From NCBI GenBank assembly GCA_015709595.1, contig CP054178.1, forward strand, positions 3,043,205 through 3,107,204: 64,000 nt of DNA, in the 5' to 3' direction. The notes below the pieces were generated by a model. That model was not told the DNA's origin. It saw only the letters and a list, made by a program, of their open reading frames with translations, and ran no database searches. This stretch comes from Phycisphaeraceae bacterium. GTDB lineage: Bacteria; Planctomycetota; Phycisphaerae; Phycisphaerales; SM1A02. Shown here piece by piece: positions 31,848-63,577 of the stretch (position 1 is its first letter; each line of letters opens with the position of its first letter). Made by a program: the position numbers and the translations under genes.

Positions 31848-31921
<74 letters not shown>

Positions 31922-31940
31922 CTTCGATAAACCTTGCTGA

Positions 31941-32038: not shown

Positions 32039-33394
32039 GTGCCGAAGACCCCGGGCTATCGCAAGCGCCACGACCGCAACCAGGCCATCGTCACCCTGAC
32101 CGACGCCGGGACCAAACGGCGGCGGGATTACTGGCTGGGCGAGTACGGCTCGCCCGAGAGCCGCGAGCTGTACCACCGCGTCGTCGCCGAGTGGGAGGCC
32201 AACGCCCGCCGCCTGATCGACCCTGACTTCGAGAAGCCCGCTGCTGGCGGGCCGGGCGGCGACGACGGGGCGGACGGCTCGGGCGGCATTACCATCTCCG
32301 AGCTGTGCGCCCGCTTCTGGCGGATGCGTGCACCGCAGTTCAACGCGAACGAGCAGGGTCACTTCAAGGCCCTCATCCGGCTCCTTCGGCGCTCGTACGG
32401 CTCGACGCCCGCTTCCGCGTTCGGGCCGCGGCGGCTACAGCGGCTCCGCGACGAGATGATCCGCGACGACGAGGAGAGCGGCCGTCGGGGCTGGGGCGTC
32501 ACCTACACCAACGCGCAGGTGCGGCGACTGTGCCGGCTCTTCAAGTGGGCGGCGTCGCAGGAGATCGTCTCCGCGAGCGTGAGAGTGGAGCTGCTGGCGG
32601 TGGACCCGCTCAAGCCCGGGCGCTGCGGGGCGCGGGCTGGGCGGGTCGTCAAGCCCGTCCCGGTCGAGGTGGTCGAGAAGACGCTGCCGTACATGGCCAG
32701 CCCGGTCGCCGCGGCTGTGCGGTTGCAGTTGCTCACCGGAGCCCGGCCCGACGAGGTGCTCAGTCTGCGGCTGTGCGACATCGACACATCGAGCGGCGAC
32801 GGGGTCTGGGTGGTCCGCCCCGAACGGCACAAGACGCAGTACATGGGGCACGACCGAGTGCTCTTCCTCGGCCCCAAGGCGCAGGCCGTGCTGGAGCGGT
32901 TCATGGACCGCCCGCCGGGCGCGTACCTCTTCTGCCCCGCGGAGGCGGACGCCGAACGCCGCGCGTCCCGGGCGGCGGCCCGCACGACGCCCCTCTCGTG
33001 CGGCAACCGTGCCGGGACGAACCGCAAGGACGAGCCGAAGAAGGCGGCGGGTGAGCGCTACGACGCGCGGGCGTACTACCGGGCGGTGCAGTACGCTTGC
33101 GACGTAGCCTTCCCGCCGCCACCGCCGCTGGCCAAGCGGGACGACGAGACGAGGGAGGCGTGGCGGAAGCGCCTGTTGGAGACGGGACTGAAGGCCGACC
33201 TCGACGCCTGGCGCAAGGAGCACCGGTGGTTCCCGTACCAGCTCCGCCACACGGCCGCGACCCTCTACCGGCGGGAGCACGGCTTGGAGGCGTCGGCCCT
33301 CGTGCTCGGGCACGCGAGCGCCCGCGTCACGGATGCGGTGTATGCCGAGCGCGATCAGTCGAAGGTGGCCGAGATCATGCGGCGGGTGGGATAG
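32039..33394 (+). CDS. int: Tyrosine recombinase (phage-type integrase)
   Basis: A 451-residue site-specific recombinase. Box I arginine lies in LLTGARPDEVLSLRL, box II in FPYQLRHTAATL, and the C-terminal HASARVTDAVYAE provides the His and the nucleophile Tyr. The usual first His of box II is Tyr here (PYQLRH), a known variation. An N-terminal SAM-like DNA-binding domain precedes it. The start is GTG with GGGAGGTG upstream. A 55-residue charged insertion sits between box I and box II. It probably integrates the element into the adjacent tRNA-Asp. Confidence 0.92.
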   Translation: MPKTPGYRKRHDRNQAIVTLTDAGTKRRRDYWLGEYGSPESRELYHRVVAEWEANARRLIDPDFEKPAAGGPGGDDGADGSGGITISELCARFWRMRAPQFNANEQGHFKALIRLLRRSYGSTPASAFGPRRLQRLRDEMIRDDEESGRRGWGVTYTNAQVRRLCRLFKWAASQEIVSASVRVELLAVDPLKPGRCGARAGRVVKPVPVEVVEKTLPYMASPVAAAVRLQLLTGARPDEVLSLRLCDIDTSSGDGVWVVRPERHKTQYMGHDRVLFLGPKAQAVLERFMDRPPGAYLFCPAEADAERRASRAAARTTPLSCGNRAGTNRKDEPKKAAGERYDARAYYRAVQYACDVAFPPPPPLAKRDDETREAWRKRLLETGLKADLDAWRKEHRWFPYQLRHTAATLYRREHGLEASALVLGHASARVTDAVYAERDQSKVAEIMRRVG

Positions 33395-43308: not shown

Positions 43309-43698
43309 TCAACCTACTGCGTGCTTCCTCAGGAAGGCGGCGACATCGGACTTGGGGACGCGACCCTGGGCGACCTCGATCACGTAGTCGGCCAATGCGT
43401 CGTCATCGATCGCGATCTCGATTCCGTTGAGATCGAGGAACACCAGTGCCGCAGCGGTGCCGGTCCGCTTGTTCCCATCCACGAACGGATGATTCTGCAC
43501 GATGTGGTAGAGATACGCCGCCGCCATCTCGAAGAGGTCCCCGTGCAGGTACCTCCCGTCGAACATGGCGCGCGGCGTGTCCACGGCGGAGGTCAGCAGC
43601 CCAGGATCGCGCAGGTCCGGGCTGCCGCCGTACCGCTCGATTTGGTCCTGGTGAATCGTCAGGACGTCATCAACGCCGAGGAATATGGGCTGGTCCAC
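43309..43698 (-). CDS. doc: Doc family toxin
   Basis: A 129-residue Fic-fold protein. The active motif HPFVDGNKRTG is at 70-80, the form typical of Doc toxins, which phosphorylate elongation factor Tu and stop translation. The GTG start lies 3 bases after the antitoxin gene stop. The pair would stabilise the integrated element. All motif residues are intact. Confidence 0.9.
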   Translation of the reverse strand: MDQPIFLGVDDVLTIHQDQIERYGGSPDLRDPGLLTSAVDTPRAMFDGRYLHGDLFEMAAAYLYHIVQNHPFVDGNKRTGTAAALVFLDLNGIEIAIDDDALADYVIEVAQGRVPKSDVAAFLRKHAVG

Positions 43699-43701
43699 GC
43701 G

Positions 43702-43929
43702 TCACTCCGCGAGCTTGCGGAGGGCCTTGCCGTGCCGGGCGTTGATCCTGGCGAGCGACTTGCCGACCCGGGCGCCGCGGCTCTCGGGGCTCACGGGCGT
43801 GATCGTGAGGACCTTCCCGTCCGTGCTCACCTCCAGTGGCGAGTCCGGCTCGATCCGGAGGAGTTCGAGGATGGGCTTGTCGATGATCAGGGCGTAACTG
43901 TTGCCGTGCTTGGTGAGCGTCTTGACCAT
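43702..43929 (-). CDS. AbrB/MazE-type antitoxin
   Basis: A 75-residue SpoVT/AbrB-domain protein. The DNA-binding swapped-hairpin region is KTLTKHGNSYALIIDKPILEL and VSTDGKVLTITP-like (both within residues 3-50). The tail (LARINARHGKALRKLAE) would bind the toxin. It precedes the doc gene by 3 bases, and an inverted repeat lies 19 bases upstream. Confidence 0.87.
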   Translation of the reverse strand: MVKTLTKHGNSYALIIDKPILELLRIEPDSPLEVSTDGKVLTITPVSPESRGARVGKSLARINARHGKALRKLAE

Positions 43930-45917: not shown

Positions 45918-46178
45918 ATGACTCCCGAACACGCGCCTAGTGCCGGCCCCTCTCCCGCCGCACAGGGAATGTCCCGGCTGAATCCGGGCGCGCTGTCGGT
46001 GGCCGACGCCGCCCGCGTGCTGTCGCGCCTCGGCGGCAAGTCCGTCACGGAGGAGATGCTCCGCGCCGACATCGACGCCGGCGCGCCAACGAACGCGAAC
46101 GGCACCATCAACCTCGTGCATTACGCGGCGTGGCTGGTGAAGGAGATGGCGGCTTCCGGAGGTGGTGGTGGCGATTGA
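45918..46178 (+). CDS. Candidate small terminase subunit or terminase-linked DNA-binding protein
   Basis: An 86-residue protein. Its pattern LSVADAARVLSRLGG...EEMLRADIDAGAP...INLVHYAAWLVKE closely resembles the N-terminus of the large terminase that follows (LRPGELARLLN...ERQLHRHRTRAGF...VDLFRYVAWLV). Position before the large subunit and an HTH-like make-up suggest a DNA-recognition role; the size is short for TerS. ATG 45918 has GGGAGG upstream. It overlaps the next gene by 17 bases. Confidence 0.62.
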   Translation: MTPEHAPSAGPSPAAQGMSRLNPGALSVADAARVLSRLGGKSVTEEMLRADIDAGAPTNANGTINLVHYAAWLVKEMAASGGGGGD

Positions 46179-48465
46179 CCCGCGCCAACTCAGGCCCGGC
46201 GAACTCGCGCGGTTGCTGAACAGCACACCGCTGGGCGAGGTGATCAGCGAGCGGCAGCTCCACCGTCACCGCACGCGCGCGGGGTTCCGCGTCGTGGCGG
46301 ATGGCGACGCGGGGAAGGTGGATCTGTTCCGGTACGTCGCGTGGCTCGTCACGACCCGGCACGAGGCGCTCGCGGAGGCGGCCCGCCAGCCGGAGGGGCT
46401 GACAGGCTACGAGGCGATGAAGGAGCGGGCGCGGCAGCGCAACGCCATGCTCTCGCTCTCGGGGAGGGACATCGGCGACCTGCCTGAGGTGGCAGACCCC
46501 AAGCGGAAGGAGAGGGCGGCACGCGACTTCCGGTACTTCTGCGAGGCGTACTTCCCGCAGACGTTCCACCTCAAGTGGTCGGACGATCACCTGAAGGTCA
46601 TCGCCAAGATCGAGCAGGCGGTGCTGGAGGGCGGGCTGTTCGCGATGGCTATGCCGCGCGGCAGCGGCAAGACCAGCCTGTGCGAGACCGCCTGCCTCTG
46701 GGCGCTCGTGTGCGGGCACCGGGAGTTTGTGGCGCTCGTCGGCTCGGACGAAGAGCACGCGGCGGGGATGCTCGAGTCGATCAAGGCGGAGCTGGAGAAC
46801 AGCGAGGTCCTCGGGGCCGACTTCCCGGAGGTCTGCCATCCCATCCGCTCGCTGGAGGGCATCCACCAGCGTGCGTCGGGACAGTTGTACCAGGGCAGGC
46901 AGACGCACATCGGGTGGACGGCGCGCGAGATCGTGCTGCCGACCATCCCGGGTTCGGCGGCGTCGGGGTCCATCATCCGCGTCGCGGGGATCACCGGGCG
47001 CATCCGTGGCATGAAGCACAAGCGCGTCGATGGCGTGAGCGTTCGCCCGTCGCTCGTGCTGATCGACGATCCGCAGACCGACGAGAGCGCGCGGTCCCCG
47101 TCGCAGTGCGCCAACCGCGAGCGAATCCTCGCCGGCGCGATCCTGGGCCTGGCTGGGCCGGGGAAGAAGATCGCGGGGCTGATGACGCTGACGGTGGTCC
47201 GCCCGGACGACCTGGCCGATCGCATCCTCGATCGGGACAAGCACCCGCAGTGGCAGGGCGAGCGGACGAAGATGGTGTACGCCTTCCCGGCGCGGGAGGC
47301 GCTGTGGCAGCGGTACGCGGAGATCCGGGCCGAGGGGCTGCGCAGCGACCGGGGCATCAAGGCGGCCACGGAGTTTTACAAGCAGCACCGGATCGCGATG
47401 GACGAGGGTGCGGTGGTCGCCTGGCCCGAGCGATTCAACCACGACGAGATCTCCGCCCTCCAGCACGCGATGAACCTGAAGCTCCAGAACGAGGCGGCGT
47501 TCTTCGCGGAGTACCAGAACGAGCCGCTGCCGGAGGTGCAGGCGACTGACGACCTGCTCAGCGCCGACCAGATCGCGGCGAAGTTGAGCGGGCACCCGCG
47601 CGGAGAGGTGCCCCTGGGCTGCACGCGCCTGACGATGTTCGTGGACGTGCAGGGCAAGGCGCTGTTCTACCTGGTGGCCGCGTGGGAGAACGACTTTACG
47701 GGCTACGTCATCGACTACGGCACCGAACCCGACCAGAAGGCCCCCCACGGGTACTTCACGCTCCGCGACCTGCGGCGGACGCTGGCGACGGCCGCGCCCC
47801 GTGCCGGTGTCGAGGGAGCGATCTACGCCGGGCTGGAGCGGTTGATCGGCGCGACCGTTGCCCGCGAGTGGCGGCGCGACGACGGCGCGATGGTGCGCAT
47901 CGACCGCTGCCTGATCGATGCCAACTGGGGCTCGTCCACGGACGTGGTGTACCAGTTCTGCCGCCAGTCCCCGCACGCGGGCGTGCTCATGCCCAGCCAC
48001 GGGCGGTACGTCGGGGCGTCGAGCGTCCCGTTCTCGGATTACAAGCGCAAGCGCGGCGAGCGCGTCGGGCTCAACTGGCGCGTGCCCGTGGTGACGGGCA
48101 AGCGCGCCGTGCGGCACGTCGTCTTCGACACGAACTACTGGAAATCGTTCGTGCACGCACGCCTGGCGGTGCCGATGGGCGACCCTGGCTGTCTGTCTCT
48201 CTTCGGCAGCAAGCCGGAGGCGCACCGGCTCATCGCCGAGCACCTGACCAGCGAGTACCGCGTGAAGACCGAGGGTCGGGGCCGCACAGTCGATGAGTGG
48301 AAGCTCCGCGTCGACGGGCTCGACAACCACTGGCTCGACTGCCTTGTCGGCGCGGCGGTGGCGGCGTCGATGCATGGGGTGGTGCTTTTCGGAACGGACG
48401 CCGAGGCAACGCCGCGCCGGCGGCTGCGGCTGTCGGCGCTGCAGCACGGGAGAAAGACATGGTGA
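46162..48465 (+). CDS. terL: Phage terminase large subunit
   Basis: A 767-residue packaging motor. An N-terminal HTH-like extension (about 1-70) is followed by the ATPase domain with Walker A MPRGSGKTS at 164-172 and Walker B VLIDDPQTDE. The C-terminal nuclease region has TMFVDVQG, LIDANWGSSTD and a late NHWLDCLVGAAVAA segment typical of RNase H-like terminase nucleases. Start GTG 46162 lies in a GTG triplet after GGAGG. The extra N-terminal domain repeats the small protein encoded just before. Confidence 0.9.
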   Translation: MVVAIDPRQLRPGELARLLNSTPLGEVISERQLHRHRTRAGFRVVADGDAGKVDLFRYVAWLVTTRHEALAEAARQPEGLTGYEAMKERARQRNAMLSLSGRDIGDLPEVADPKRKERAARDFRYFCEAYFPQTFHLKWSDDHLKVIAKIEQAVLEGGLFAMAMPRGSGKTSLCETACLWALVCGHREFVALVGSDEEHAAGMLESIKAELENSEVLGADFPEVCHPIRSLEGIHQRASGQLYQGRQTHIGWTAREIVLPTIPGSAASGSIIRVAGITGRIRGMKHKRVDGVSVRPSLVLIDDPQTDESARSPSQCANRERILAGAILGLAGPGKKIAGLMTLTVVRPDDLADRILDRDKHPQWQGERTKMVYAFPAREALWQRYAEIRAEGLRSDRGIKAATEFYKQHRIAMDEGAVVAWPERFNHDEISALQHAMNLKLQNEAAFFAEYQNEPLPEVQATDDLLSADQIAAKLSGHPRGEVPLGCTRLTMFVDVQGKALFYLVAAWENDFTGYVIDYGTEPDQKAPHGYFTLRDLRRTLATAAPRAGVEGAIYAGLERLIGATVAREWRRDDGAMVRIDRCLIDANWGSSTDVVYQFCRQSPHAGVLMPSHGRYVGASSVPFSDYKRKRGERVGLNWRVPVVTGKRAVRHVVFDTNYWKSFVHARLAVPMGDPGCLSLFGSKPEAHRLIAEHLTSEYRVKTEGRGRTVDEWKLRVDGLDNHWLDCLVGAAVAASMHGVVLFGTDAEATPRRRLRLSALQHGRKTW

Positions 48466-48638
48466 AGGACTCACCGGCTGTCAACCCGAGTGCGCGCGAG
48501 GCACGCGGCCTGCGATGCCCCAAGTGCGGGTGCGGCCACCTTCCGGTGCGGTACACGCGGCAGCAGAACGGCCACATCATGCGGGTAAGACGGTGCCGCC
48601 ACTGCGGGCACCGCGTCGTCACCCGCGAGCGTCCGTAG
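48459..48638 (+). CDS. Small zinc-ribbon protein, NrdR-like ribbon
   Basis: A 59-residue protein. CPKCGCGHLPVRYTRQQNG and then RVRRCRHCGHRVVTRER give four cysteines in an NrdR-type ribbon (the RRRRCxxCGxRxxTxER pattern). NrdR's ATP-cone is missing, so it cannot be the full regulator. It overlaps the terminase stop by 7 bases. Phage Ogr/Delta-type late activators are also small zinc proteins, a possible alternative. Confidence 0.68.
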   Translation: MVKDSPAVNPSAREARGLRCPKCGCGHLPVRYTRQQNGHIMRVRRCRHCGHRVVTRERP

Positions 48639-48730
48639 CGCCGCCCCCCCCCTGGTACACATCTGTACGAACCTGCTGCGCCGAGGAGTCTCCGCGAGGT
48701 TTTGACGCGGCGGCGCGTCGGAATGGGTGG

Positions 48731-48982
48731 ATGATCACGCACATCCCACCCATGACCGACGCGCGCACCGCAGCCAAACTCAAGCTCGAACTGCGGCTGA
48801 CACCCGGTGTCGACCGCGAGGACGCGGCGCAGGAGGCATGGCTCGCGCACATGGAGGGACGCAATCCTGCCCGCGCCGTCAACACCTTCGCGCAGCGCGA
48901 GCGGCGGTACCGTCGCAGGCAGCGTGCCGTAGGCGGGCGTGCCGAAGTGCTCGGCGCGACGGAGCACTGCCATGCCCGGTGA
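48731..48982 (+). CDS. Small hypothetical protein
   Basis: An 83-residue, Arg/Ala-rich protein (TAAKLKLELRLTPGV, DREDAAQEAWLAHMEG, RRYRRRQRAVGG). The helical acidic segment faintly recalls a sigma-factor region 2, but the rest does not support that. ATG 48731 or 48752 may be used. It overlaps the next gene by 11 bases, typical of the late operon. Confidence 0.5.
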   Translation: MITHIPPMTDARTAAKLKLELRLTPGVDREDAAQEAWLAHMEGRNPARAVNTFAQRERRYRRRQRAVGGRAEVLGATEHCHAR

Positions 48983-49193
48983 TCCCCAAGCCACGCCCGG
49001 TCTTGACCACACCATCCGCGACAACGCGTCTCAGCCCGCGAAGGCGTCGGTGGACGGCCAGACTGTCGAGCAGCATTCGCTGAAGGACCAGATCGAGGCG
49101 GATCGGTACCTCGCGTCGAAGCAGGCCGCGCGGACGCCAAGGAATGCCCTGCGGCTGACGCGACTGGTTCCGCCCGGGGCGGAGGGGGGCTGA
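48972..49193 (+). CDS. Small protein before portal, gpW-like position
   Basis: A 73-residue protein ending in HSLKDQIEADRYLASKQAA and LRLTRLVPPGAEGG. Small proteins with this end occur directly before portal genes in tailed phages, where gpW-type connectors lie; homology to gpW is not shown by sequence. GGAG precedes ATG 48972. Its stop overlaps the portal start (TGATG). Confidence 0.62.
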   Translation: MPGDPQATPGLDHTIRDNASQPAKASVDGQTVEQHSLKDQIEADRYLASKQAARTPRNALRLTRLVPPGAEGG

Positions 49194-50689
49194 TGCTCGG
49201 ACTCTTCAAACTCCGTTCGAGCACCCCCCACGCTCCCGCTCCGCCGAGGGGTCGCTCGGCCCACAAGGGCGGCTTCCTGCGTCGGCTCGTCGTGGGCACC
49301 GCGCTCCGCGCCGGGTTCGACTCGGCCGTCACCAACGACCTCAACCGCAAGCATTGGGCCAACGCCGACGGCCTGAGCGCCGATGCGGCCGCTTCGCCCG
49401 AGGTTCGGCGGACGCTCCGCAACCGCGCCCGCTACGAGACGGCGAACAACGCCTACGCGAAGGGCATCGTGCTGACCCTCGCCAACGACGTGGTGGGCAC
49501 CGGCCCGCGCCTGCAGCTGCTCACCGAGGACGACGACGCCAACGAGCGGATCGAACAAGCGTTCATGTCGTGGACGAAGGCGATCGGGCTGCCGGAGAAG
49601 CTGCGCACCATGCGGGCCTCCCGCGCCACTGATGGTGAAGTGTTCGCGGTTCTCGTGAGCAATCCCCGACTGCCGACGCCCGTCAAACTCGACATCCGGC
49701 TCGTCGAGGCCGACCAGGTCACGACGCCGGACCTCTGGCCCGTGGACGACAACGCGGTGGACGGCATTGTCTTCGACGCCTTCGGCAACCCGGTCGAGTA
49801 CCACGTCCTCAAGGGGCACCCGGGCGACACACGCACCGGATTCCTTGGGATCGAGTACGACCGCCTGCCCGCCGAGTCGGTGCTGCATTACTTCCGGGTC
49901 GATCGCGCCGGACAGAGCCGCGGCGTCCCGGACATCACGCCGGCGCTGCCGCTCTTCGCGCAGTTGCGCCGGTTCACGCTGGCGGTGCTGGGCGCGGCGG
50001 AGACCGCCGCCGACTTTGCGGGCATTCTCTACACCGACGCCCCCGCCAACGGCGAGGCCGAGGCGGTCGAGCCGATGGACGCCATCGAGCTCGAGGCCCG
50101 CTCGCTCCTGACCATGCCCGGCGGCTGGAAGATGGCGCAGGTGCAGGCCGAACAGCCCTCGACCACCTACGCCGAGTTCAAGCGTGAGATCCTCAACGAG
50201 ATCGCCCGCTGCCTGAACATGCCCTTCAACGTCGCGGCGTGCAACTCGTCGGGGTACAACTACGCCAGCGGTCGCCTCGACCACCAGACGTACTTCAAGA
50301 GCATCCGCGTCGAGCAGGAGCACCTGGCTTGCGTCGTGCTCGACCGGCTCCTCGACGCGTGGCTGCGCGAGGCGGTGCTGATCTCGGATCTGCTGCCGCT
50401 CCCGGTGCGCACGCTGGTCGCCGGCGGTCAGAGTCTCCCGCACCAGTGGTTCTGGGATGGCAACGAGCACGTGGACCCGGCCAAGGAGGCGACGGCGCAG
50501 GCGACGCGTCTGGCGTCGCACACCACCACGCTCGCAGCGGAGTACGCCAAGCAGGGACGCGACTGGGAGAACGAACTCCGCCAGCGGGCCAAGGAATTCT
50601 CGCTGATGAAGGAGCTGGGGCTCGCGCCCGAGCAGGCCGAGTCGCTCGCTCCTGTCGGTACGGGCAAGGAGGACGACGATGCCGAGTGA
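49193..50689 (+). CDS. Phage portal protein, lambda family
   Basis: A 498-residue portal. The N-terminal part has LRNRARYETANNAYAKGIV, typical of lambda gpB-type portals, and the middle has HYFRVDRAGQSRGVPDITP. The C-terminus has ASGRLDHQTYFKSI and KEATAQATRLASHTTTL, the clip and wing segments. Portals form the dodecameric DNA channel in the capsid vertex. It overlaps the next gene by 11 bases. Confidence 0.92.
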   Translation: MLGLFKLRSSTPHAPAPPRGRSAHKGGFLRRLVVGTALRAGFDSAVTNDLNRKHWANADGLSADAAASPEVRRTLRNRARYETANNAYAKGIVLTLANDVVGTGPRLQLLTEDDDANERIEQAFMSWTKAIGLPEKLRTMRASRATDGEVFAVLVSNPRLPTPVKLDIRLVEADQVTTPDLWPVDDNAVDGIVFDAFGNPVEYHVLKGHPGDTRTGFLGIEYDRLPAESVLHYFRVDRAGQSRGVPDITPALPLFAQLRRFTLAVLGAAETAADFAGILYTDAPANGEAEAVEPMDAIELEARSLLTMPGGWKMAQVQAEQPSTTYAEFKREILNEIARCLNMPFNVAACNSSGYNYASGRLDHQTYFKSIRVEQEHLACVVLDRLLDAWLREAVLISDLLPLPVRTLVAGGQSLPHQWFWDGNEHVDPAKEATAQATRLASHTTTLAAEYAKQGRDWENELRQRAKEFSLMKELGLAPEQAESLAPVGTGKEDDDAE

Positions 50690-52808
50690 ACGGCTGCTGA
50701 ACCTGTGCGCACCCGTCGAGGGTTGGATCGAAGCCGCCCCTGCGACGGGCGATGGGCAGGCCGCGAGCCTTCGCCGGTTCTCGATGGTGGCCTACACCGG
50801 CGGGCCGATGGTCCTGGCGGGCTGGCCGCACCCCGTAGTCGTCGACCTCGCGGGGCTGCAGGTCGCCGGCGGCGGCTTGAAGAGTCGCCCGATCCTCAAG
50901 GACCACAATCGCTCCCTCATCGTCGGGCACACCGATTCGGTCCGCATCGAGGGCTCGCAACTGCTCGTCTCGGGAGTGATCTCCGGGGCCGGGCCTGTGG
51001 CGCGAGAGATTGTCGAGAGCAGCCGGAACGGCTTCCCGTGGCAGGCGTCGCTGGGCGCGATCGCCGGGCAGATGGAGTACGTGCCCAAGGGCAAGAAGGC
51101 CTCGGCCAACGGACGCGAGTTCGAGGGCCCCGTGCTGATCGCACGCAAGAGCACGCTGGGCGAGGTGAGTTTCGTGGCGCTGGGCGCGGACGACAACACG
51201 AGCGCGGCGGTCGCCGCCGGCGCTGTGCGGCCACCCACATCAGGCAAGGAGGACGACATGACGTTCGAGCAGTGGCTTGAGGCCAAGGGCTTTGACCCCG
51301 CTTGCCTCACCGACACGCAGAAGACCAACCTCGAGGCCCTGTTCAACGCCGAGTCCCAAGCCCCCCAGGGGGCGGGCGGCATGGATGCCGATCCCGACGG
51401 GGACGGCGAAGCGGGCGAGAGCACGGACGCCACCCCGCCGATCGCCCGCCTCCGCGCCGAGGTGGCCGCCGAGTCCAGGCGGATCGCCGAGGTCCGGCGG
51501 ATCTGCGCTGTCGGCGGCGGGAAGCACGCCGAGATCGAGGCCAGGGCCATCGCCGAGGGTTGGGACGCGAACAAGACCGAGCTCGCGGTGCTCCGCGCCG
51601 AGCGCCCGTCGCTGGTCGGGGGCGGCGTTCGTGGCGACAAGGACCCCGCTCAGGCGGGCCTCGCCCTGGAGGCCGCGCTGTGCCTCTCGGCGGGTCTGCC
51701 CGAGAAGCAGGTGGGCGAGTGGTACGACGATCGCACCATGAACGCCGCGTTGGCACGCGATCTGCGCGGGGCGGGGCTGCACTCGCTCATGTACGAGGTC
51801 ATCCGCGCGGGCGGCGAGCACGCGCGCCCGGGGCGCGTGGACAACGACACCATCCGGACCGCCTTCAACGCCGAGCGGCGGCTCATCCAGGCGGCGGGCG
51901 GGGGTGGGGGTTTCACCACGATCTCGCTCTCGGGCATCCTGTCCAACGTCGCCAACAAGACCATGCTCGCGGCGTACACCGCCGTCGAGAGCGTCGTGGG
52001 CCACTTCTGCGCCGAGACGGACGTGAACGACTTCAAGGAGGTCACGCGCTACCGGCTCACCGGCAACGGCGTCTTCGAGAAGGTCGGCCCCGACGGAGAG
52101 CTCAAGCACGCGGGGCTCAGCGAGCAGGCGTACACCAACAAGGTCGAGACGTTCGGGCGGATGATCGCGCTCACGCGGCAGATGATGATCAACGACGACC
52201 TGGGGGCGTTCCTCCAGATCCCGCGCATCATCGGGCGCATGTCCGCCCTCAAGCGCGAGGAGGCGGTCTTCGAGCTGCTCCTGGCCAACCCGGCCAACTT
52301 CTTCGGCGTCGGCAACAAGAACTTCTTCTCGGGCGCGGACACGGCCCTGTCGATCGATGCCCTGACCAAGGGCGAGCAGATGTTCCTCGACCAGACCGAC
52401 ACGGACGGCAAGCCGATCCTGCTAGCCCCCGCCGTGCTGCTCGTGCCGTCGTCCCTCAAGGTCGCGGCCCAGGTCCTGATGACCGAGACGCGGATCAACG
52501 AGACGACCACCACCGACAAGGGCAAGCCCAGCGTCAACCCGCACGCGGGCAAGTGGAAGCCGGTCGCCAGCCCCTACCTCAACGCGCAGGGCATCTCGGG
52601 CGGAAGCGCCAAGGCGTGGTACCTCTTCGCCAACCCGGCGGACGTGGCGGCTATCGAGATCGCGTACCTGCGCGGCAAGCGCACGCCGACCATCGAGAGC
52701 GGCGAGACGGACTTCAACACGCTGGGGATGCAGTGGCGCGGCTACTTCGACTTCGGCGTCGCCATGCAGGACTTCCGCGCGGCGGTCAAGAGCAAGGGCG
52801 AGGCGTAA
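50679..52808 (+). CDS. Fused prohead protease and major capsid protein
   Basis: A 709-residue fusion. Residues 1-185 look like a prohead protease: LKDHNRSLIVGH (73-84), PWQASLGA with the candidate Ser (120-127), and LGEVSFVALGADDNT (160-174). A charged, Ala-rich scaffold-like linker covers about 190-330. The C-terminal part (about 330-709) matches Mu gpT-type major capsid proteins, with NNVANKTMLAAYTA-like and FETLGMQWRGYFDFGVA-like segments. Self-cleavage would release the capsid protein. No frameshift is needed; the reading frame is open throughout. Confidence 0.85.
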   Translation: MPSERLLNLCAPVEGWIEAAPATGDGQAASLRRFSMVAYTGGPMVLAGWPHPVVVDLAGLQVAGGGLKSRPILKDHNRSLIVGHTDSVRIEGSQLLVSGVISGAGPVAREIVESSRNGFPWQASLGAIAGQMEYVPKGKKASANGREFEGPVLIARKSTLGEVSFVALGADDNTSAAVAAGAVRPPTSGKEDDMTFEQWLEAKGFDPACLTDTQKTNLEALFNAESQAPQGAGGMDADPDGDGEAGESTDATPPIARLRAEVAAESRRIAEVRRICAVGGGKHAEIEARAIAEGWDANKTELAVLRAERPSLVGGGVRGDKDPAQAGLALEAALCLSAGLPEKQVGEWYDDRTMNAALARDLRGAGLHSLMYEVIRAGGEHARPGRVDNDTIRTAFNAERRLIQAAGGGGGFTTISLSGILSNVANKTMLAAYTAVESVVGHFCAETDVNDFKEVTRYRLTGNGVFEKVGPDGELKHAGLSEQAYTNKVETFGRMIALTRQMMINDDLGAFLQIPRIIGRMSALKREEAVFELLLANPANFFGVGNKNFFSGADTALSIDALTKGEQMFLDQTDTDGKPILLAPAVLLVPSSLKVAAQVLMTETRINETTTTDKGKPSVNPHAGKWKPVASPYLNAQGISGGSAKAWYLFANPADVAAIEIAYLRGKRTPTIESGETDFNTLGMQWRGYFDFGVAMQDFRAAVKSKGEA

Positions 52809-54625: not shown

Positions 54626-55054
54626 ATGGCGATCAAACTGGGCATGGAGGCGGTCCTCAAGTACAAGGTCGGCGGGCAGGCCGGCGGCGGCGCGTGGACG
54701 GCCCTTGGCAACGTCAAGGACGTGACGCTCAACCTTGAAACCGGCGAGGCCGACGTGACCACCCGCGCCAACGCGGGCTGGCGGGCCACCGTCGGCACGC
54801 TCAAGGAAGCCAGCGTCGAGTTCGAGATGGTGTGGGACACTGGCGATGCGGGGTTCACCGCCATCAAGAACGCCTTCTTCAACAACGCCGTCATCGGCCT
54901 TCAGGTCCTCGACGGGACCAGCGGCCAGGGCCTTCAGGCGGACTTCTCGATCACCAACTTCTCGCGCAGCGAGGCACTCGAGGAGGCCATCACCGTCTCG
55001 GTCACCGCCAAGGTGACGTACTCGGCCACGGCGCCCTCATGGATCGGCGGCTAA
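54626..55054 (+). CDS. Phage tail tube protein
   Basis: A 142-residue protein of the siphovirus tail tube type. LGNVKDVTLNLETGEADVTTR and TLKEASVEFEMVWDT are the usual strands, and SATAPSWIGG-like ends recur in tube proteins. A ribosome site GAGGCAAGGAG lies before the ATG. With no sheath gene near, the tail should be non-contractile. Confidence 0.82.
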   Translation: MAIKLGMEAVLKYKVGGQAGGGAWTALGNVKDVTLNLETGEADVTTRANAGWRATVGTLKEASVEFEMVWDTGDAGFTAIKNAFFNNAVIGLQVLDGTSGQGLQADFSITNFSRSEALEEAITVSVTAKVTYSATAPSWIGG

Positions 55055-57070: not shown

Positions 57071-59065
57071 GTGGCGGACACGCGGGGCATCCGGGCCGGA
57101 CGGGCGTTTGTCGAACTCGGTGTGAGCGACAAGCTCAGCGCCGGGCTCCGCCGCGCCCAGAAGCGCCTGGAGGCCTTCGGCCAGGGGCTGCGCAGCGCCG
57201 GCACACGCCTGGCGGGCCTCAGCGCGGCGGCGGTCACGGCCCTGCTCGGGAGTGTGAAGGTCTTCTCCGGCATGGGCGACGCCCTCGACAAGATGATCCT
57301 GCGCACCGGCGTCAGCGTCGAGACCCTCAGCGAACTGGGCTTCGCCGCCGAGCAGGCTGGGGCGGACATGGAGACGCTGGAGAACGGCCTGAAGTTCATG
57401 CAGCGGTCGCTCGTGGACGCGGCGAAGGGCTCGGCGACCGCACAACAGGCGCTCTCGCTACTCGGCCTGTCCGTGGCCGACCTCGCGGGCCTCTCGCCGG
57501 ACCAGCAGTTCAAGCGCCTGGCCGATCGATTGTCGCAGGTCACCGACCCCGCGTTGCGCACCGCTCTGGCGATGGAGATCTTCGGGCGGGCTGGGACGAA
57601 GTTGCTCCCCCTGCTCTCCTCCGGCGCGGCGGGGATCGAAGAGTTGCAGGCCCAGGCCCGCAGCCTCGGCCTGACGGTGAGCACGCAGACGGCCAGGGAC
57701 GCCGCGGAACTCAACGACACGCTGAACATCCTCTGGCGCGTGGTCAAGCAGGGCGTCTTCGCCATCGGCGGGACGCTCGCGCCCACGATCAAGGAACTGT
57801 CGCAGCGGATCACCCGCGTCATCGTCGCCGCCACCGACTGGATCAAGCGGAACAGGGAAGTCGTCGTCTGGGCCCTCAAGGTCGCGGCGGGGGTCGTGGT
57901 GGTCGGGGCCGCCCTCATCGGCTTGGGCGTGGCCATCACCGGCATCGGCGCGGCGATGGGCGTGCTGGCGACCGTCGTCTCGGGCATCGGCGCGGCGTTC
58001 GGGCTGGTCGGAGCGGTGCTGGGCGCGCTGCTCAGCCCTATCGGCCTGATCGTCGCCGCCGTGGTTGGGCTGGGCGCTGCGCTCGTGGTCACCAGCGGCG
58101 CGGGCGGGGCGGCACTCGAGTGGCTCGGGGAGCAGTTCACACGCCTGCGCGACTGGGCCACCAAGGTCATCGGCGGCATCTCCGATGCCCTGGCCGCCGG
58201 CGACATCGCGCTCGCCGCCGAGATCCTGTGGCTGAGCCTGAAGGTCGCCTGGCAGCAGGGCATCGCGGCACTCAACAAGGTCTGGCTCCAGGCCAAGCAG
58301 TTCTTCGTCGGCACGGCCCAGTCCATGTGGTACGGGGCGCTGGCCGCCGCCGAGATCGGCTTCCACGCCATCGAGGTCGCGTGGATCGAGACGACCGCGT
58401 TCCTCTCCAAGACGTGGACCAACTTCGCCACCGGCTTCCAGAGGGTCTGGGAGCAGGCCTCGTCGTGGGTCGCCAAGCGGATGCTGGAGATCCAGGGGCT
58501 GTTCGACTCCGGGCTGGACGTGGACGCCGCGAAGAAGGCGGTGGACCAGCAACTCGAGTCCCGGCTCGTGGAACTCGAGGACGCCGCCCAGCGCGACGTG
58601 GCCGCGCGCGAGCGCCGCCGCGCCGCCGAGCGCGAGCAGGCGGCCGCCATCCACGAGGCCACGCTCGCGGCGATCGGCCAGGACTTCGAGAACGCGCAGG
58701 ACGCGCTCCGCAAGGACACGGAGGCGGGCCTTGCCGAGTCGCGTGCCGCCCTGGACGCCGCCAAGGAGCGCCTGGCCGCCGCGATCGAGGAGGCCCGGCG
58801 CAAGCGCGAGGCGGCGGACGCGGAGCGTGGTCCTTCCAGGTCTCCCCGCGACCTCATGGCCGAGTTCGAGGACCGCGTAGCCGGCCTGGGCGACCTGCTC
58901 GCCAAGGGGATCAGCGTGCGCGGCACATTCAACGCCAAGGCCGCGCAGGGACTCGCCGCGGGCAGCGACGCCGCCGAGCGCACGGCCCGGGCGACGGAGC
59001 AGACGGCCCGGCACACCAAGCGACTGGCCGATGCGGCGGGGACGGGCGGATTGTCTTTCGGTTGA
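57071..59065 (+). CDS. Tail tape measure protein
   Basis: A 664-residue protein that sets tail length. The N-terminal region has RAFVELGVSDKLSAGLRRAQ and GLRSAGTRLAGLSAAAVTALLG, the known tape measure start. Hydrophobic segments lie about 270-330 (VAAGVVVVGAALIGLGV, LLSPIGLIVAAVVGLGAAL). The C-terminal part is a long coiled coil (about 480-590, Glu/Ala/Arg-rich). Start GTG 57071. At the usual rate of about 0.15 nm per residue the tail would be near 100 nm. Confidence 0.87.
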   Translation: MADTRGIRAGRAFVELGVSDKLSAGLRRAQKRLEAFGQGLRSAGTRLAGLSAAAVTALLGSVKVFSGMGDALDKMILRTGVSVETLSELGFAAEQAGADMETLENGLKFMQRSLVDAAKGSATAQQALSLLGLSVADLAGLSPDQQFKRLADRLSQVTDPALRTALAMEIFGRAGTKLLPLLSSGAAGIEELQAQARSLGLTVSTQTARDAAELNDTLNILWRVVKQGVFAIGGTLAPTIKELSQRITRVIVAATDWIKRNREVVVWALKVAAGVVVVGAALIGLGVAITGIGAAMGVLATVVSGIGAAFGLVGAVLGALLSPIGLIVAAVVGLGAALVVTSGAGGAALEWLGEQFTRLRDWATKVIGGISDALAAGDIALAAEILWLSLKVAWQQGIAALNKVWLQAKQFFVGTAQSMWYGALAAAEIGFHAIEVAWIETTAFLSKTWTNFATGFQRVWEQASSWVAKRMLEIQGLFDSGLDVDAAKKAVDQQLESRLVELEDAAQRDVAARERRRAAEREQAAAIHEATLAAIGQDFENAQDALRKDTEAGLAESRAALDAAKERLAAAIEEARRKREAADAERGPSRSPRDLMAEFEDRVAGLGDLLAKGISVRGTFNAKAAQGLAAGSDAAERTARATEQTARHTKRLADAAGTGGLSFG

Positions 59066-59077
59066 ACGGAGTAGCGG

Positions 59078-59905
59078 ATGCCGATCGAGGTGCGAGAAAA
59101 GTTCGAGTCCCGCCGCCTGGTGAAGGCCGCCAACGGCGCCAACTCCTCGGCGGAGCTGGCGTACATCGTGCTCGGCACGGACAACGACATCGCCGCGCGC
59201 GACGCCCTCGAGGCCGAGGCCCCGACCAACTACGCCACGCTGCCCCGCCAGAGCGTGCAGATCGAGCCGCTGGGCCCGGGCCTGTGGGACGGCGTGGTCC
59301 GGTACGCCCTCGCGGGGGGCGGCGGCGGGGGCGGCCTGCCCACCGGCGAGTCGTCATTCCAGTTCGACACCGGCGGGGGCACGCAGCACATCACCCAGTC
59401 GCTGGCCACCGTGCAGCGCATCCCCGCGCCGGGCATGGTCGCGCCCGACTTCCAGGGGGCCATCGGCGTCAGCGCTGACGGCGTCGAGGGGATCGACATC
59501 ACCGTCCCCGTCTACCACTTCGCCGAGACGCACTACAAGCCCGACGTCCAGATCACGGGCGCGTACAAGGGCGTCCTCTTCAACCTCACCGGCAAGGTCA
59601 ACGGCGACTCCTTCCGCGGCTTTGCCCCCGGCGAGGTGCTCTTTATGGGCGCGAGCGGCTCGAAGCGCGGCAGCGGCACCGAGGCCGACTGGGAGATCAC
59701 GTACCGCTTCGCCGCCAGCCCCAACGTGACGGGGCTGTCGATCGGCCCGATCAACGGCATCAACAAGAAGGGGTGGGAGTACCTGTGGGTGCGGTACAGC
59801 GACCAGGAGGACACCGCCGCCAAGGCGCTGGTGAAGCGCCCCATCGCGGCCTACGTCGAGCGCGTGTACGAGAGCGGGAGTTTCGCGGCATTGCAGTTGG
59901 GATGA
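59078..59905 (+). CDS. Tail or tail-tip protein
   Basis: A 275-residue protein. A beta-rich start (REKFESRRLVKAANGANSS, AYIVLGTDNDIAARDAL) is followed by a Gly run (GGGGGGG), then a beta region (ITVPVYHFAETHYKPDVQIT) and WEYLWVRYSDQED. Position after the tape measure suggests a baseplate or distal-tail role. The Gly run foreshadows the low-complexity tracts of the last tail gene. No firm family. Confidence 0.62.
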   Translation: MPIEVREKFESRRLVKAANGANSSAELAYIVLGTDNDIAARDALEAEAPTNYATLPRQSVQIEPLGPGLWDGVVRYALAGGGGGGGLPTGESSFQFDTGGGTQHITQSLATVQRIPAPGMVAPDFQGAIGVSADGVEGIDITVPVYHFAETHYKPDVQITGAYKGVLFNLTGKVNGDSFRGFAPGEVLFMGASGSKRGSGTEADWEITYRFAASPNVTGLSIGPINGINKKGWEYLWVRYSDQEDTAAKALVKRPIAAYVERVYESGSFAALQLG

Positions 59906-59920
59906 CCCCCACGAGAAGAC

Positions 59921-60955
59921 ATGGGTGACGACCTCCGCAAAGTCCGGCCCGGCGATCCGCTCCGCATCCCCGCGCGGGCGTACAACGCCTTCGTCGATGC
60001 GGCGCTGGAGTCGAGGCGTCGCCAGCAGGACCGCCGCGCCGGTGAACTGTGGGACGGCGGGCGCTCCTTCATCGGCGGGGGCGTCGTGGCCGTGCGCAAC
60101 GACAGCGGCGCGGACCTGGAGCGCTACCACGCCCTGGCCATCGACAGGCCGCTCTTTCTTCCCGGCGAGGACGGCCCGGAGAAGTCCTTCCAGAACCGCC
60201 TGGCCTTCAAGGGCATCACGCCCACCGACGCGACGCGCCCGGGCTCCTTCGCCATCGCCCGCGAGCCGATCCCGCAGGGCCAGGTCGGCCTGTGCGTCGT
60301 CCACGGCGTCACGCCCGCGCGGGTGCTCATCGAGGACGAGGAGCACGCCTTCGCCGAGGTCGCCCCCGACGAGACGGTACTCACCTCCGCGGGCTCGGGC
60401 GGCACCGTCATCCTCTGGAAGGAGGAAGGCGTCGGCGAGAAATGGGCGCTGGTCGAGGTGGGACGGCCTCGTGGGGGCCGGATCGTCGCCATTCTCGGCG
60501 AGGCCCGCGAGATCGAGGGCGAGCGCTTCCGCTGGCGCTACCCGTGGACCGAGGCCGCCATCGACGGCGACCCCGGCAGCGACACCTTCGGTCGGTACAT
60601 CGCGCTGGAGGAAGGGCTGTCCTCCAAGGGCCCCGGCGGCGAGGAGGACCCGGCGCGCTGGGCGGTCAACAGGTTCGAGAGCCACCACAGCGAGGTGCCC
60701 GAGGAAGAACCCGAAGGCACCGACGGCTTCGGTGGCGTGCGCTCCCTCTTCGTGCCCGGGCAACTCGACCCGCAGGACCCCGCGGGCTACTGCCCGCGCA
60801 AGGCCGCGGTGCCGATGCTGCGCCCCATCCTCAAGGGCGTCGCGGTCGAGATGTTCGCCGAGCGCGACACGCGCGGCAAGACGGTCTGGGCGTTCCAGGC
60901 CCTCAACGGAATGGAGCTGGTCGAGTTCGATGTCCCGGTGTGGCTCTATGTCTGA
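59921..60955 (+). CDS. Uncharacterised tail-tip protein
   Basis: A 344-residue protein of unknown function. It begins LRKVRPGDPLRIPARAYNAF and has an acidic middle (EDEEHAFAEVAPDET) and a tail ending VEFDVPVWLYV. The mixture of charged loops and short strands suits a structural particle protein. It overlaps the methyltransferase gene by 8 bases. Confidence 0.6.
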   Translation: MGDDLRKVRPGDPLRIPARAYNAFVDAALESRRRQQDRRAGELWDGGRSFIGGGVVAVRNDSGADLERYHALAIDRPLFLPGEDGPEKSFQNRLAFKGITPTDATRPGSFAIAREPIPQGQVGLCVVHGVTPARVLIEDEEHAFAEVAPDETVLTSAGSGGTVILWKEEGVGEKWALVEVGRPRGGRIVAILGEAREIEGERFRWRYPWTEAAIDGDPGSDTFGRYIALEEGLSSKGPGGEEDPARWAVNRFESHHSEVPEEEPEGTDGFGGVRSLFVPGQLDPQDPAGYCPRKAAVPMLRPILKGVAVEMFAERDTRGKTVWAFQALNGMELVEFDVPVWLYV

Positions 60956-61520
60956 CCCCCACGAGGTTATCCCGGTTGACCTGGAAGCCCGCCGAGAGCA
61001 CGAGCGGAGGAAGTACGTCGCGCTCATGCCCACCGGCTACGGCTCGACCAATCACGGGCGGCTCGCGTACCGGCTCGTCCAGGGATTCAAGCCCCGGTTC
61101 GTCGTGGATTTCGGCTGTGGCCGGAACCTCTTCATCCAGCACCTGCGGCGGCTGGGGATCGACGGGCTCGGCATCGACTTCGCCTTCCCGGAGGCGGACA
61201 TCGTCGCGCCCATGCACCGCGTGCCGGTCTCCGCGGGCATCGCCGACGCGGTGACGTCCTTCGACGCCCTCGAGCACGTGCTCCCCGAGGAGGTGGACGA
61301 GGTCCTCGACGAGATGCGGCGGATCGCGGTGCCCGGCGGTCGGTTCGTATTCTCGATCTGCACGCGTGAGAGCAAGACGAAGGTCAACGGCGAGGGCCTG
61401 CACCCGACGGTGCGGCCTCTCAAGTGGTGGCTCGACCGGATCGGCCGCGTCGGCACGGTGCGCCAGGGACTGGGTGCGCCTCGTGGGGGGTACATCGCAG
61501 GGGTGTTCAACCATGCATGA
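60948..61520 (+). CDS. Class I SAM-dependent methyltransferase
   Basis: A 190-residue methyltransferase. Motif I is VVDFGCGRNLFIQHL, followed by GLGIDFAF (motif II) and VTSFDALEHVLPEE and EMRRIAVPGGRFVFSI (motifs IV-V). The fold matches small-molecule, sugar or protein methylation rather than DNA methylases, as DPPY is absent. It lies among tail genes, next to a DUF115-like gene, so a sugar or particle protein target is inferred. Confidence 0.85.
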   Translation: MSDPHEVIPVDLEARREHERRKYVALMPTGYGSTNHGRLAYRLVQGFKPRFVVDFGCGRNLFIQHLRRLGIDGLGIDFAFPEADIVAPMHRVPVSAGIADAVTSFDALEHVLPEEVDEVLDEMRRIAVPGGRFVFSICTRESKTKVNGEGLHPTVRPLKWWLDRIGRVGTVRQGLGAPRGGYIAGVFNHA

Positions 61521-61529
61521 GGGCTTCTC

Positions 61530-62435
61530 ATGAGAGAGAACGGGGGCGACATCGCGGCGTTGCAGTCGGGGCTCAAGCAGCGCAGGCCGGCGCGGAGCGG
61601 CGTGCGCCTCTACACCGCCGACTTCGATTCTGTCTCCCTCTGCGACTTCTATCGGAGTCGCTCGGCGTTCCTGATCCTCTCGGGACCGTCGCTCGCCCAA
61701 CTCGACCTGTCGCGGCTCAACCAGCGCGGCATCGTCACGATGGCCGTCAACAACGCCTGGGCCGTGCATCGTCCGACGCTGTGGACGTGCGTGGACGACC
61801 CCGGCCGCTTCATCGACACGGGCTGGAAGGACCCCGGCATCCTGAAGATCGTGCCCGTCTCGCACTTCGACAAGCGACTGCGCGTGCAGAACCCCGATGG
61901 CTCGTTCCGTGCGAGCGCGTTCAAGGTGCGGCAGATGCCGGGCGTGCTCTTCTACCGCCGCAGCGACCACTTCGACCACAGCCGATTCCTCAAGGCCGAC
62001 ACCATCAACTGGGGCCAGGACGGCGAGCACACGGACTCGCTGGGGATCAAGGGCAAGCGGAGCGTCATGCTCGCCGCGCTGCACCTGCTCCATTACCTGG
62101 GCTTCCGCACGGTCTACCTGCTCGGCTGCGACTTCAAGATGGCCCGCGACCGGCGCTACGCCTTCGACGAGCACCGCAGCAAGGACGCGATCCGCCACAA
62201 CAACATCCTGTACGAGAGCCTCCAGAAGCGCTTCGAGGCCCTGAAGCCGCACTTCGAGCAGCACCGCTTCCGCGTGCTCAACTGCGCGCCCGACCCCGAG
62301 TCGTGCGCCCTGAAAGCGTTCGAGTTCGTGCCCTTCGAGCGGGCCGTGGCGGACGCGGCCGCCGAGTGCTCGAAACCCATCAGCACCGCCGGGTGGTATC
62401 AGCCCGCCAACCCAACGCAGGAGAACCAGGGATGA
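61530..62435 (+). CDS. DUF115/MptE-like glycan-related protein
   Basis: A 301-residue protein. FLILSGPSLAQLDLSRLNQRG, VTMAVNNAWAVHRPTLWTC and VYLLGCDFKMARDRRYAF match the DUF115/6-hydroxymethylpterin-kinase-like family, whose members (such as Maf flagellin-glycosylation proteins and sialyltransferase-like enzymes) act on sugars. A role in modifying phage tail or lipopolysaccharide sugars is likely but not proven. It overlaps the next gene (ATGA). Confidence 0.68.
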   Translation: MRENGGDIAALQSGLKQRRPARSGVRLYTADFDSVSLCDFYRSRSAFLILSGPSLAQLDLSRLNQRGIVTMAVNNAWAVHRPTLWTCVDDPGRFIDTGWKDPGILKIVPVSHFDKRLRVQNPDGSFRASAFKVRQMPGVLFYRRSDHFDHSRFLKADTINWGQDGEHTDSLGIKGKRSVMLAALHLLHYLGFRTVYLLGCDFKMARDRRYAFDEHRSKDAIRHNNILYESLQKRFEALKPHFEQHRFRVLNCAPDPESCALKAFEFVPFERAVADAAAECSKPISTAGWYQPANPTQENQG

Positions 62436-63577
62436 GCGACGAGCCACGCCGGTACTTCCTCTACATCCCCGTGTGGGCCTCCACCGGCGGCCCCGGCGGC
62501 TCGGGTTCGGGCTCCGGCTCGTCGGGCAGTTCGGAGAGTTCCTCGTCGGGCTCGTCCTCGTCCAGCGGGAGCAGTTCGTCGGGTTCGTCAAGCGGGTCAT
62601 CCAGCAGCGGCTCGGGCTCGTCGAGCGGCTCGTCCGGCGCTTCGAGCGGCGCGAGCAGCGGGGCCAGCAGCGGTGCGTCGAGCGGCGCATCGGGCAGTTC
62701 CGGTGCGGGCAGCAGCGGCGCGTCCAGCGGTGGCGGCGGCAGTTCGGGCGCATCGGGCGGCTCCGCCAGCGGCGGGTCTGGGAGCGGCGGATCGGGCAGC
62801 GGCGGCTCCGGAGGCGGAGGCTCGGGCGGAGGAGGATCGGGGGGCGGGGGCGGCGGAGGAGGAGGTGGCGGTGGCGGCGGAGGCGGGGGTGGCGGTTCGA
62901 ACTGCCTGCTCTTCGGCACGCTCGTCCGCCTGGCCGACGGCCGCGTCACCACGATCGAGAACCTCAAGCCCGGCGACAGCGTCGCCACCATCAAGGTCCC
63001 CGGCCTCGAGGTCGACGTCCCCTACCGCGCCCAGTACCAGTGGCTCTCTCACCACGGTATGCGCGGCACGATCCCGACCGTCGGGCGCGTGGCCAGCGTG
63101 AAACTCGGCGAGCACACCGGCTTCGTGGTCATTAACCGCCGGATCAAGGCCACGCCTGAACACCCGTTCCTGATGCGCCGCGGCGATGAGTGGGGATTCA
63201 CGTCGGCCGAGCTGCTCAAGAGGGGCGACTACCTGATCGGCGAGCGACTCGCCGAGGAACTCGTCGAGACCATCGAGCGGATCGACGCGCCAACCCGCAC
63301 CGTGGCCATCCACATCCCCGGCACGAACACGTTCTCGGCCGAGGGCGTCTGGGTCCACAACGACATGCCCGCGACGGCCCACTCCTCTGGCTCCGGCTCG
63401 AGTTCCAGCGGCTCGGGCTCCGGTTCCGGCAGCGGCTCGTCGGCCAGCAGCAGCGGCTCGTCGGCCAGCAAGTCCAGCGGCTCGTCGATGTCGTCGAGCT
63501 CCTCCTCCGGCTCCGCCAGCGGCAGCGGCTCCAGCAGCCAGTCCAGCGGCGGACCGGGAGGGACTTACTCGATCTGA
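62432..63577 (+). CDS. Ser/Gly-repeat protein with bacterial intein-like Hint domain
   Basis: A 381-residue protein. After MSDEPRRYFLYIPVWAST, residues about 20-157 are almost only Ser and Gly, ending in a poly-Gly tract. A Hint domain spans 158-310: it starts at Cys158 (CLLFGTLVRLADG), has TPEHPF at 241-246 and ends GVWVHN (305-310), followed by Asp311 instead of Cys, Ser or Thr. That is the type A bacterial intein-like pattern, expected to cleave itself rather than splice cleanly. A second Ser/Gly tail of about 65 residues follows. ATG 62432 overlaps the DUF115-like stop. Confidence 0.85.
   Translation: MSDEPRRYFLYIPVWASTGGPGGSGSGSGSSGSSESSSSGSSSSSGSSSSGSSSGSSSSGSGSSSGSSGASSGASSGASSGASSGASGSSGAGSSGASSGGGGSSGASGGSASGGSGSGGSGSGGSGGGGSGGGGSGGGGGGGGGGGGGGGGGGGSNCLLFGTLVRLADGRVTTIENLKPGDSVATIKVPGLEVDVPYRAQYQWLSHHGMRGTIPTVGRVASVKLGEHTGFVVINRRIKATPEHPFLMRRGDEWGFTSAELLKRGDYLIGERLAEELVETIERIDAPTRTVAIHIPGTNTFSAEGVWVHNDMPATAHSSGSGSSSSGSGSGSGSGSSASSSGSSASKSSGSSMSSSSSSGSASGSGSSSQSSGGPGGTYSI
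62490..62900 (+). repeat. Ser/Gly low-complexity coding repeat
   Basis: GGCTCG, AGCGGC and similar units repeat for about 410 bases, ending in a GGN tract. It encodes Ser/Gly linkers before the Hint domain. A second short tract lies at 63388-63550. Confidence 0.8.

Follow-up and report, generated by a model that had tools for sequence, protein, structure and literature searches.

Intact central Hint domains and a conserved lysine motif in Ser/Gly-rich prophage proteins of Phycisphaerales suggest domain excision and arm joining

Little is understood about why type A bacterial intein-like (BIL) domains persist in bacteria and phages. A prophage gene of a Phycisphaeraceae bacterium (GenBank assembly GCA_015709595.1, contig CP054178.1) poses this question in a specific form, as its product carries a Hint domain between two Ser/Gly arms: what becomes of the arms when such a domain acts? 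Here, we report an analysis of the gene, its homologues, and its surroundings, in which "the window" denotes the whole 64,000-nucleotide stretch analyzed. In Phycisphaerales prophages, the intact central Hint domain and the conserved lysine that accompanies it suggest, on sequence grounds, that the domain is excised and the arms are joined without an outside enzyme.

Translation of the window gave an open reading frame on the plus strand (62432-63577) of 381 amino acids with no internal stop. The gene starts within an ATGA (62432-62435) shared with the stop of the upstream gene, an overlap that suggests translational coupling, and the protein begins with MSDEPRR, followed by the anchor YFLYIPVWA. 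The features of the gene and protein are as follows.

62432..63577 (+): Hint protein coding sequence (P0001), 381 amino acids, supported by homologues; its start codon shares bases with the stop of the preceding gene
62453..62479 (+): N-terminal anchor YFLYIPVWA, residues 8-16; [FY]LY[IL]P[VI]WA in 116/116 anchored Hint proteins
62480..62902 (+): N-terminal Ser/Gly arm, residues 17-157, lysine-free, with Asn157 at −1 (116 homologues compared)
62903..63361 (+): Hint (BIL-like) domain, residues 158-310, 153 residues (AF2 model, Foldseek/VIA, profile match)
62903..62905 (+): Cys158, catalytic residue 1 (121/121)
63152..63163 (+): block B, Thr241-Pro-Glu-His244 (T, E, and H each 121/121)
63356..63364 (+): His309-Asn310 and +1 Asp311 (His 121/121, Asn 120/121, Asp 115/121)
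63362..63574 (+): C-terminal Ser/Gly arm, residues 311-381 (translation)
63470..63490 (+): lysine motif KSSGSSM, residues 347-353 (Lys347), proposed acceptor (homologue conservation)

A preliminary description had placed C158, TPEHPF (241-246), GVWVHN (305-310), and D311 in this protein, with Ser/Gly tracts on both sides of the Hint domain (about 17-156 and 312-381), and the translation bears out each of these positions. It had missed the conserved N-terminal anchor, the −1 Asn (118/121), and KSSGSSM at 347-353; comparison of the C-arms, in which this last motif is conserved, also revises its picture of the arms as plain Ser/Gly.

That the gene is real follows from the ATGA overlap, from two further Hint gene copies in the same 3.84-Mb single-contig genome (Hint identity, 96% and 55%), from the more than 100 homologues found in Phycisphaerales genomes and viral contigs by profile search with the Hint domain, and from the Hint dN/dS (median, 0.37; 10-90% range, 0.09-0.55). 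A chance low-complexity reading frame of GC-rich DNA was ruled out by the homologues and by the mixed serine codons of the arms (TCG, 36; AGC, 31; TCC, 22; others, 10). Of 400 genomes of the order, 50 matched a degenerate DNA pattern for the anchor, as did 60 viral stretches; the reversed pattern, used as a control, was found in none of the 400 genomes. Searches of PHROGs, NCBIfam, and PADLOC returned no confident family for the Hint protein. Many viral contigs (e.g., L171, L184, L185, and L191) break off within the Ser/Gly repeats or just ahead of them, so that assemblies probably underrepresent such proteins. Irregular copies also occur: the Hint gene of L031 is frameshifted, and L034 and L117 carry a recombinant, armless Hint fragment, through assembly error or decay.

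The gene lies in a complete prophage of 45.9 kb. Its second repeat copy is at about contig position 3120966, and the window ends inside the element.

31880..31924 (no strand): attL, a 45-bp direct repeat at tRNA-Asp; attR lies 45.9 kb on, beyond the window
32039..33394 (+): prophage integrase (PHROG 1, E 6e-27)
46162..52808 (+): terminase large subunit, portal, and protease/major head (PHROGs)
54626..55054 (+): major tail protein (PHROG 1407, E 1e-15)
57071..59065 (+): tape measure protein (PHROG 8462, E 4e-44)
59078..59905 (+): conserved tail-module gene (related prophages)
59921..60955 (+): gene 59921, whose N-terminal domain stands in for the anchor at six distant Hint loci
60948..61520 (+): SAM-dependent methyltransferase (PF13489, 1e-11; in 94/110 loci)
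61530..62435 (+): putative glycosyltransferase, MptE/MAF-like and sialyltransferase-like (PHROG 4603, E 1e-8; PF01973 subthreshold)

Prophage genes run in the order integrase, recombination, replication, terminase, portal, head, major tail protein, and tape measure, and the late block continues from the tape measure gene through two conserved genes, the methyltransferase, and the putative glycosyltransferase to the Hint gene, which closes it. This late-block order, Hint gene included, recurs in related prophages, and the glycosyltransferase is found upstream of the Hint gene in 101/113 loci, mostly 0-33 bases away. The earlier attribution to a phage is thus upheld by the position in a prophage late module behind the tape measure gene. 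A nucleotide search of named phages with the tail module gave no match.

The slot after the Hint gene varies (L004, L005, L066, L083, L093, and others), with cargo named by eye as copper-type P-ATPase, RND efflux pump, ABC permease, and serine recombinase. At L006 (395-12718, right of the window), this cargo comprises an HTH-SNF2 helicase, a DUF1156 methylase, and a DUF499 ATPase, which match the HmaABC defense system (PADLOC), with a ClpP-like protease gene in between. In one clade, comprising L003 (2331-2954) and about 27 loci, the Hint gene is directly followed by a sugar-transferase gene (PF04488) or by two of them. Elsewhere in the window, a gene pair on the minus strand (43309-43929) resembles a Doc-type toxin and an AbrB-like antitoxin, by eye only. 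Near-identical or related prophages at L042, L055, L078, and L094 lie in bins named Rhizobiaceae, Leptolyngbya, Cyanobacteria, and Nevskiales, probably through misbinning.

Six distant loci (L084, L094, L098, L104, L114, and L156) carry the N-terminal domain of gene 59921 in place of the anchor, with 37-45% identity to a portion of 150-179 residues of gene 59921, and have neither the methyltransferase nor the glycosyltransferase gene; three of these loci (L084, L114, and L156) have tandem Hint genes, the first one fused to the gene-59921 domain. Here a different late phage protein carries the Hint module, in support of a role in the virion. Encoded in the late structural module, the Hint protein is probably a virion protein, of head or tail, as judged from the fusions and from its syntenic place after the tape measure gene. 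An AF2 model of gene 59921, of low confidence (pLDDT 70), gave weak matches to phage capsid-decorating proteins. The anchor probably holds the protein to the phage particle; it is replaced in the fused homologues, and a single anchor function is thus not universal. The arms may form a surface fiber.

By every testable feature, in sequence and in predicted structure, the domain is a type-A-BIL-like Hint. Its AF2 model (alignment of 28 loci; pLDDT, 90.1; pTM, 0.85) found its best PDB match with Foldseek/VIA in BIL2 of Tetrahymena BUBL1 (Z 20.6; rmsd, 1.8; 139 aligned); the Clostridium thermocellum BIL (Z 19.1; rmsd, 1.3; 131 aligned) and mini-inteins lay within 2 Z units of BIL2, and other inteins and Hedgehog came next. 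The best PDB match by sequence profile was the C. thermocellum BIL 2lwy (E 8.7e-8). Comparison with Pfam Hint families, a check proposed in the preliminary description, gave matches in the window protein that fell below the families' own cutoffs (PF07591, 27.2 bits versus 27.7).

The alignment of 121 Hint sequences showed no change at Cys1, at the T, E, or H of TxEH, or at the His of HN, and Asn was kept in 120; at this level of conservation, the motif positions are not a product of chance. The sole Asn replacement in the alignment is that of L081 (HH for HN), and a further natural variant, L439, reads HDN; Cys1 and the lysine motif are retained in both. Random replacement of Cys or HN in homologues, which would have spoken against a self-cleaving Hint domain, was not seen (Cys changes, 0/121; Asn, 1/121, plus the HDN of L439). 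The +1 residue was D in 115, T in 3, Q in 2, and Y in 1 of the aligned sequences (Asp, about 95%), and D in 110, T in 5, and Y in 1 of the 116 anchored Hint proteins. Asn stood at −1 in 118/121 aligned and 113/116 anchored sequences, within an arm that is otherwise nearly all Ser/Gly. Fold and strict catalytic-residue conservation together support the earlier assignment to a Hint of the type A BIL kind without Cys, Ser, or Thr at +1. By analogy with its family, the domain is very likely to be active as a self-processing domain in some form. A fold need not be active, and loss of the domain in some phages marks it as dispensable there, so it could instead be structural or inert, a folded bead within a Ser/Gly fiber; with Cys1, T, H, and HN invariant while other positions vary, and with the domain under purifying selection, this is the least probable of the explanations considered.

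The C-arm holds one generally conserved lysine, Lys347. K-x-S-G-S-S was present in the C-arm of 113/116 anchored Hint proteins, and the remaining three carry relaxed forms (KSSSSS, KSNGSS, and KSSGAG). It was present as well in 12/12 fused or other nonanchored Hint proteins checked, and it was found in 0/9 of the distinct Hint-less homologues in which it was sought. No lysine occurred among the 20,636 N-arm residues of the 116 anchored Hint proteins whose arms could be separated. The motif lies 21-58 residues after HN (+6 in the shortest arm, L159) and is encoded by 71 nucleotide versions; its coding pattern occurs three times in this genome, once per Hint gene, and nowhere else. Since the fused forms have the motif and lack the glycosyltransferase and methyltransferase genes, it is tied to the Hint domain and not to those genes. 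Serine glycosylation by the adjoining glycosyltransferase was rejected as the reason for the motif, because fused forms without that gene keep it; glycosylation of the arms is possible.

In studied type A BILs, an N-terminal thioester is made and cleavage occurs at the C-terminal Asn; attack by the freed amine can ligate, and these domains are reported to splice as well as cleave, though cleavage products dominate (PMC4031507). For BIL2, ATP-independent attachment of the upstream partner to a lysine through an isopeptide bond has been reported (PMC8616854). In the course of processing proposed here, Cys158 would attack the Asn157 carbonyl (N-S acyl shift), and the anchor arm would be held as a thioester. 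Cyclization of Asn310 at His309-Asn310 could free the C-arm, and Lys347 (K-S-S-G-S-S) would capture the thioester, either within the chain or from a neighboring copy. The arms would end up joined via an isopeptide bond, with the Hint domain removed. Transfer of the N-arm to Lys347 as acceptor is our preferred reading, at a probability of about 0.4, given the conserved lysine, the lysine-free N-arms, the motif-free Hint-less proteins, the motif kept in fused forms, the single-chain Hint-less relatives (below), and the isopeptide bond to lysine formed by BIL2, the best structural match. Against it, the thioester could just be hydrolyzed, and the motif could serve to bind something else. Since BIL2 could conjugate its partner to other substrates (PMC8616854), the thioester might also be captured by a lysine or other nucleophile on another protein or surface, such as a virion neighbor or the host, and the N-arm grafted there; this is improbable, the protein's own conserved lysine being a simpler acceptor and no candidate external acceptor having been identified.

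The Hint-less relatives bear on what the finished protein might look like. Five viral contigs with the same neighboring genes encode proteins with the same anchor and without the Hint domain. All five keep the C-terminal end FIEGGxEGVPPAxWQ, common to one Hint-bearing class, and thus have anchor and C-terminal end on one chain. L424 and L425 form a second Hint-less class, with an acidic end. The trees made for the glycosyltransferase and for gene 59921 (midpoint root) nest the phages of the five contigs among Hint phages, which indicates that the domain was probably lost. The Hint-less proteins show no clean empty site; a short, different segment occupies the Hint position. Because Hint domain and motif are adjacent, one deletion could remove both without any functional link, and as few independent losses (about two) are known, their joint loss weighs little.

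The preliminary description had foreseen an anchor-plus-arm product and a free Ser/Gly tail. In its broader form, the Hint domain would cut one or both ends, leaving anchor and N-arm on the particle and releasing the Hint domain and the C-arm. Most homologues lack Cys, Ser, or Thr at +1, the dominance of cleavage products in studied type A BILs (PMC4031507) fits such an outcome, and the −1 Asn could, as a matter of chemical inference, promote N-terminal cleavage. However, most Hint-less relatives hold FIEGGxEGVPPAxWQ and the anchor on one chain, and a released C-arm would leave the conserved lysine motif, found only with the Hint domain, without a reason; both points favor joining over release, and cleavage alone is a close but less probable rival of capture by Lys347. 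A single chain of this kind is what BIL-type splicing, the mechanism proposed for type A BILs (PMC4031507), would produce: Asn310 would cyclize first, the alpha-amine of Asp311 would attack the thioester, and the arms would be peptide bonded as the Hint domain leaves. The Hint-less homologues resemble the expected spliced chain, but this route does not explain the conserved lysine, and the altered-HN homologues L081 (HH) and L439 (HDN) keep Cys1 and the lysine motif; splicing is a close rival too, somewhat less probable than cleavage alone.

Capture by Lys347 thus remains the preferred reading. A fuller form of it, tentatively held and less probable, is an ATP-independent isopeptide system of phages in which a self-discarding Hint domain would transfer the upstream arm to the lysine of K-S-S-G-S-S-F/M in the downstream arm, of its own chain or of another copy, and so yield joined or cross-linked Ser/Gly fibers on the virion. 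The role of a BIL is directly testable in this family, which combines strictly conserved residues with relatives that serve as natural controls without Hint and with only one candidate lysine acceptor. If the lysine is the acceptor, the reaction would be a bacterial counterpart of that of the ciliate BIL2 and might open a way to protein fibers that self-assemble or are cross-linked. A role would then also suggest itself for the Hint domains that annotations place in the tail proteins of other phages.

Among known systems, several more distant ones were set aside. PT-HINT polymorphic toxins (PF07591) show a subthreshold Pfam likeness, but no toxin domain follows the phage Hint: the C-arm is low-complexity Ser/Gly, with no Pfam domain behind the Hint. 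Class 1 inteins share the fold and splicing blocks, but the phage domain lacks Cys, Ser, or Thr at +1 in about 95%, has no endonuclease, and is not hosted by a conserved enzyme; a classical intein was ruled out by the +1 residue, Asp in the window protein and Thr in few homologues. A Hedgehog Hog domain was rejected, as the phage Hint ends in HN and a Ser/Gly arm and not in a sterol-recognition region.

Hint domains also occur in tail proteins of the large phages NCTB, Erwinia pEa_SNUABM and Yoloswag, and Alcaligenes Afa-NA1, annotated as tail, virion structural, or intein-domain proteins, with the Hint mostly behind collagen-like repeats. Among predicted viral structures, three NCTB-sized entries matched best (query TM, 0.81-0.89). 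These domains share 25-32% identity with the present family and lack Ser/Gly arms, and they sit at the very C terminus, with about 5-13 residues after HN, whereas the Hint domain described here is central. All the large-phage C-tails read after HN hold a lysine, which is not evidence by itself, as any ten residues will often include one. No study of Hint processing in tail fibers or tail proteins was found in the open-access literature.

The closest likenesses are to BILs. BIL2 of Tetrahymena BUBL1 (6y75 and 6tmm), the best structural match to the phage Hint model, has ubiquitin-like flanks in a eukaryote, whereas the phage Hint, known from sequence and model, has disordered Ser/Gly arms; the conserved lysine downstream of the phage Hint is a candidate for a BUBL-type acceptor. 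The type A BIL of C. thermocellum (2lwy) shares the Hint fold, Cys1, TxxH, the C-terminal HN, and the lack of an obligatory +1 nucleophile; in contrast, the phage domain belongs to a prophage late protein, lies between Ser/Gly arms, and is accompanied by a conserved −1 Asn and a downstream lysine motif. A Hint domain in the middle of the protein, flanked by Ser/Gly arms and combined with an anchor and the lysine peptide, sets the present family apart from the large-phage tail proteins.
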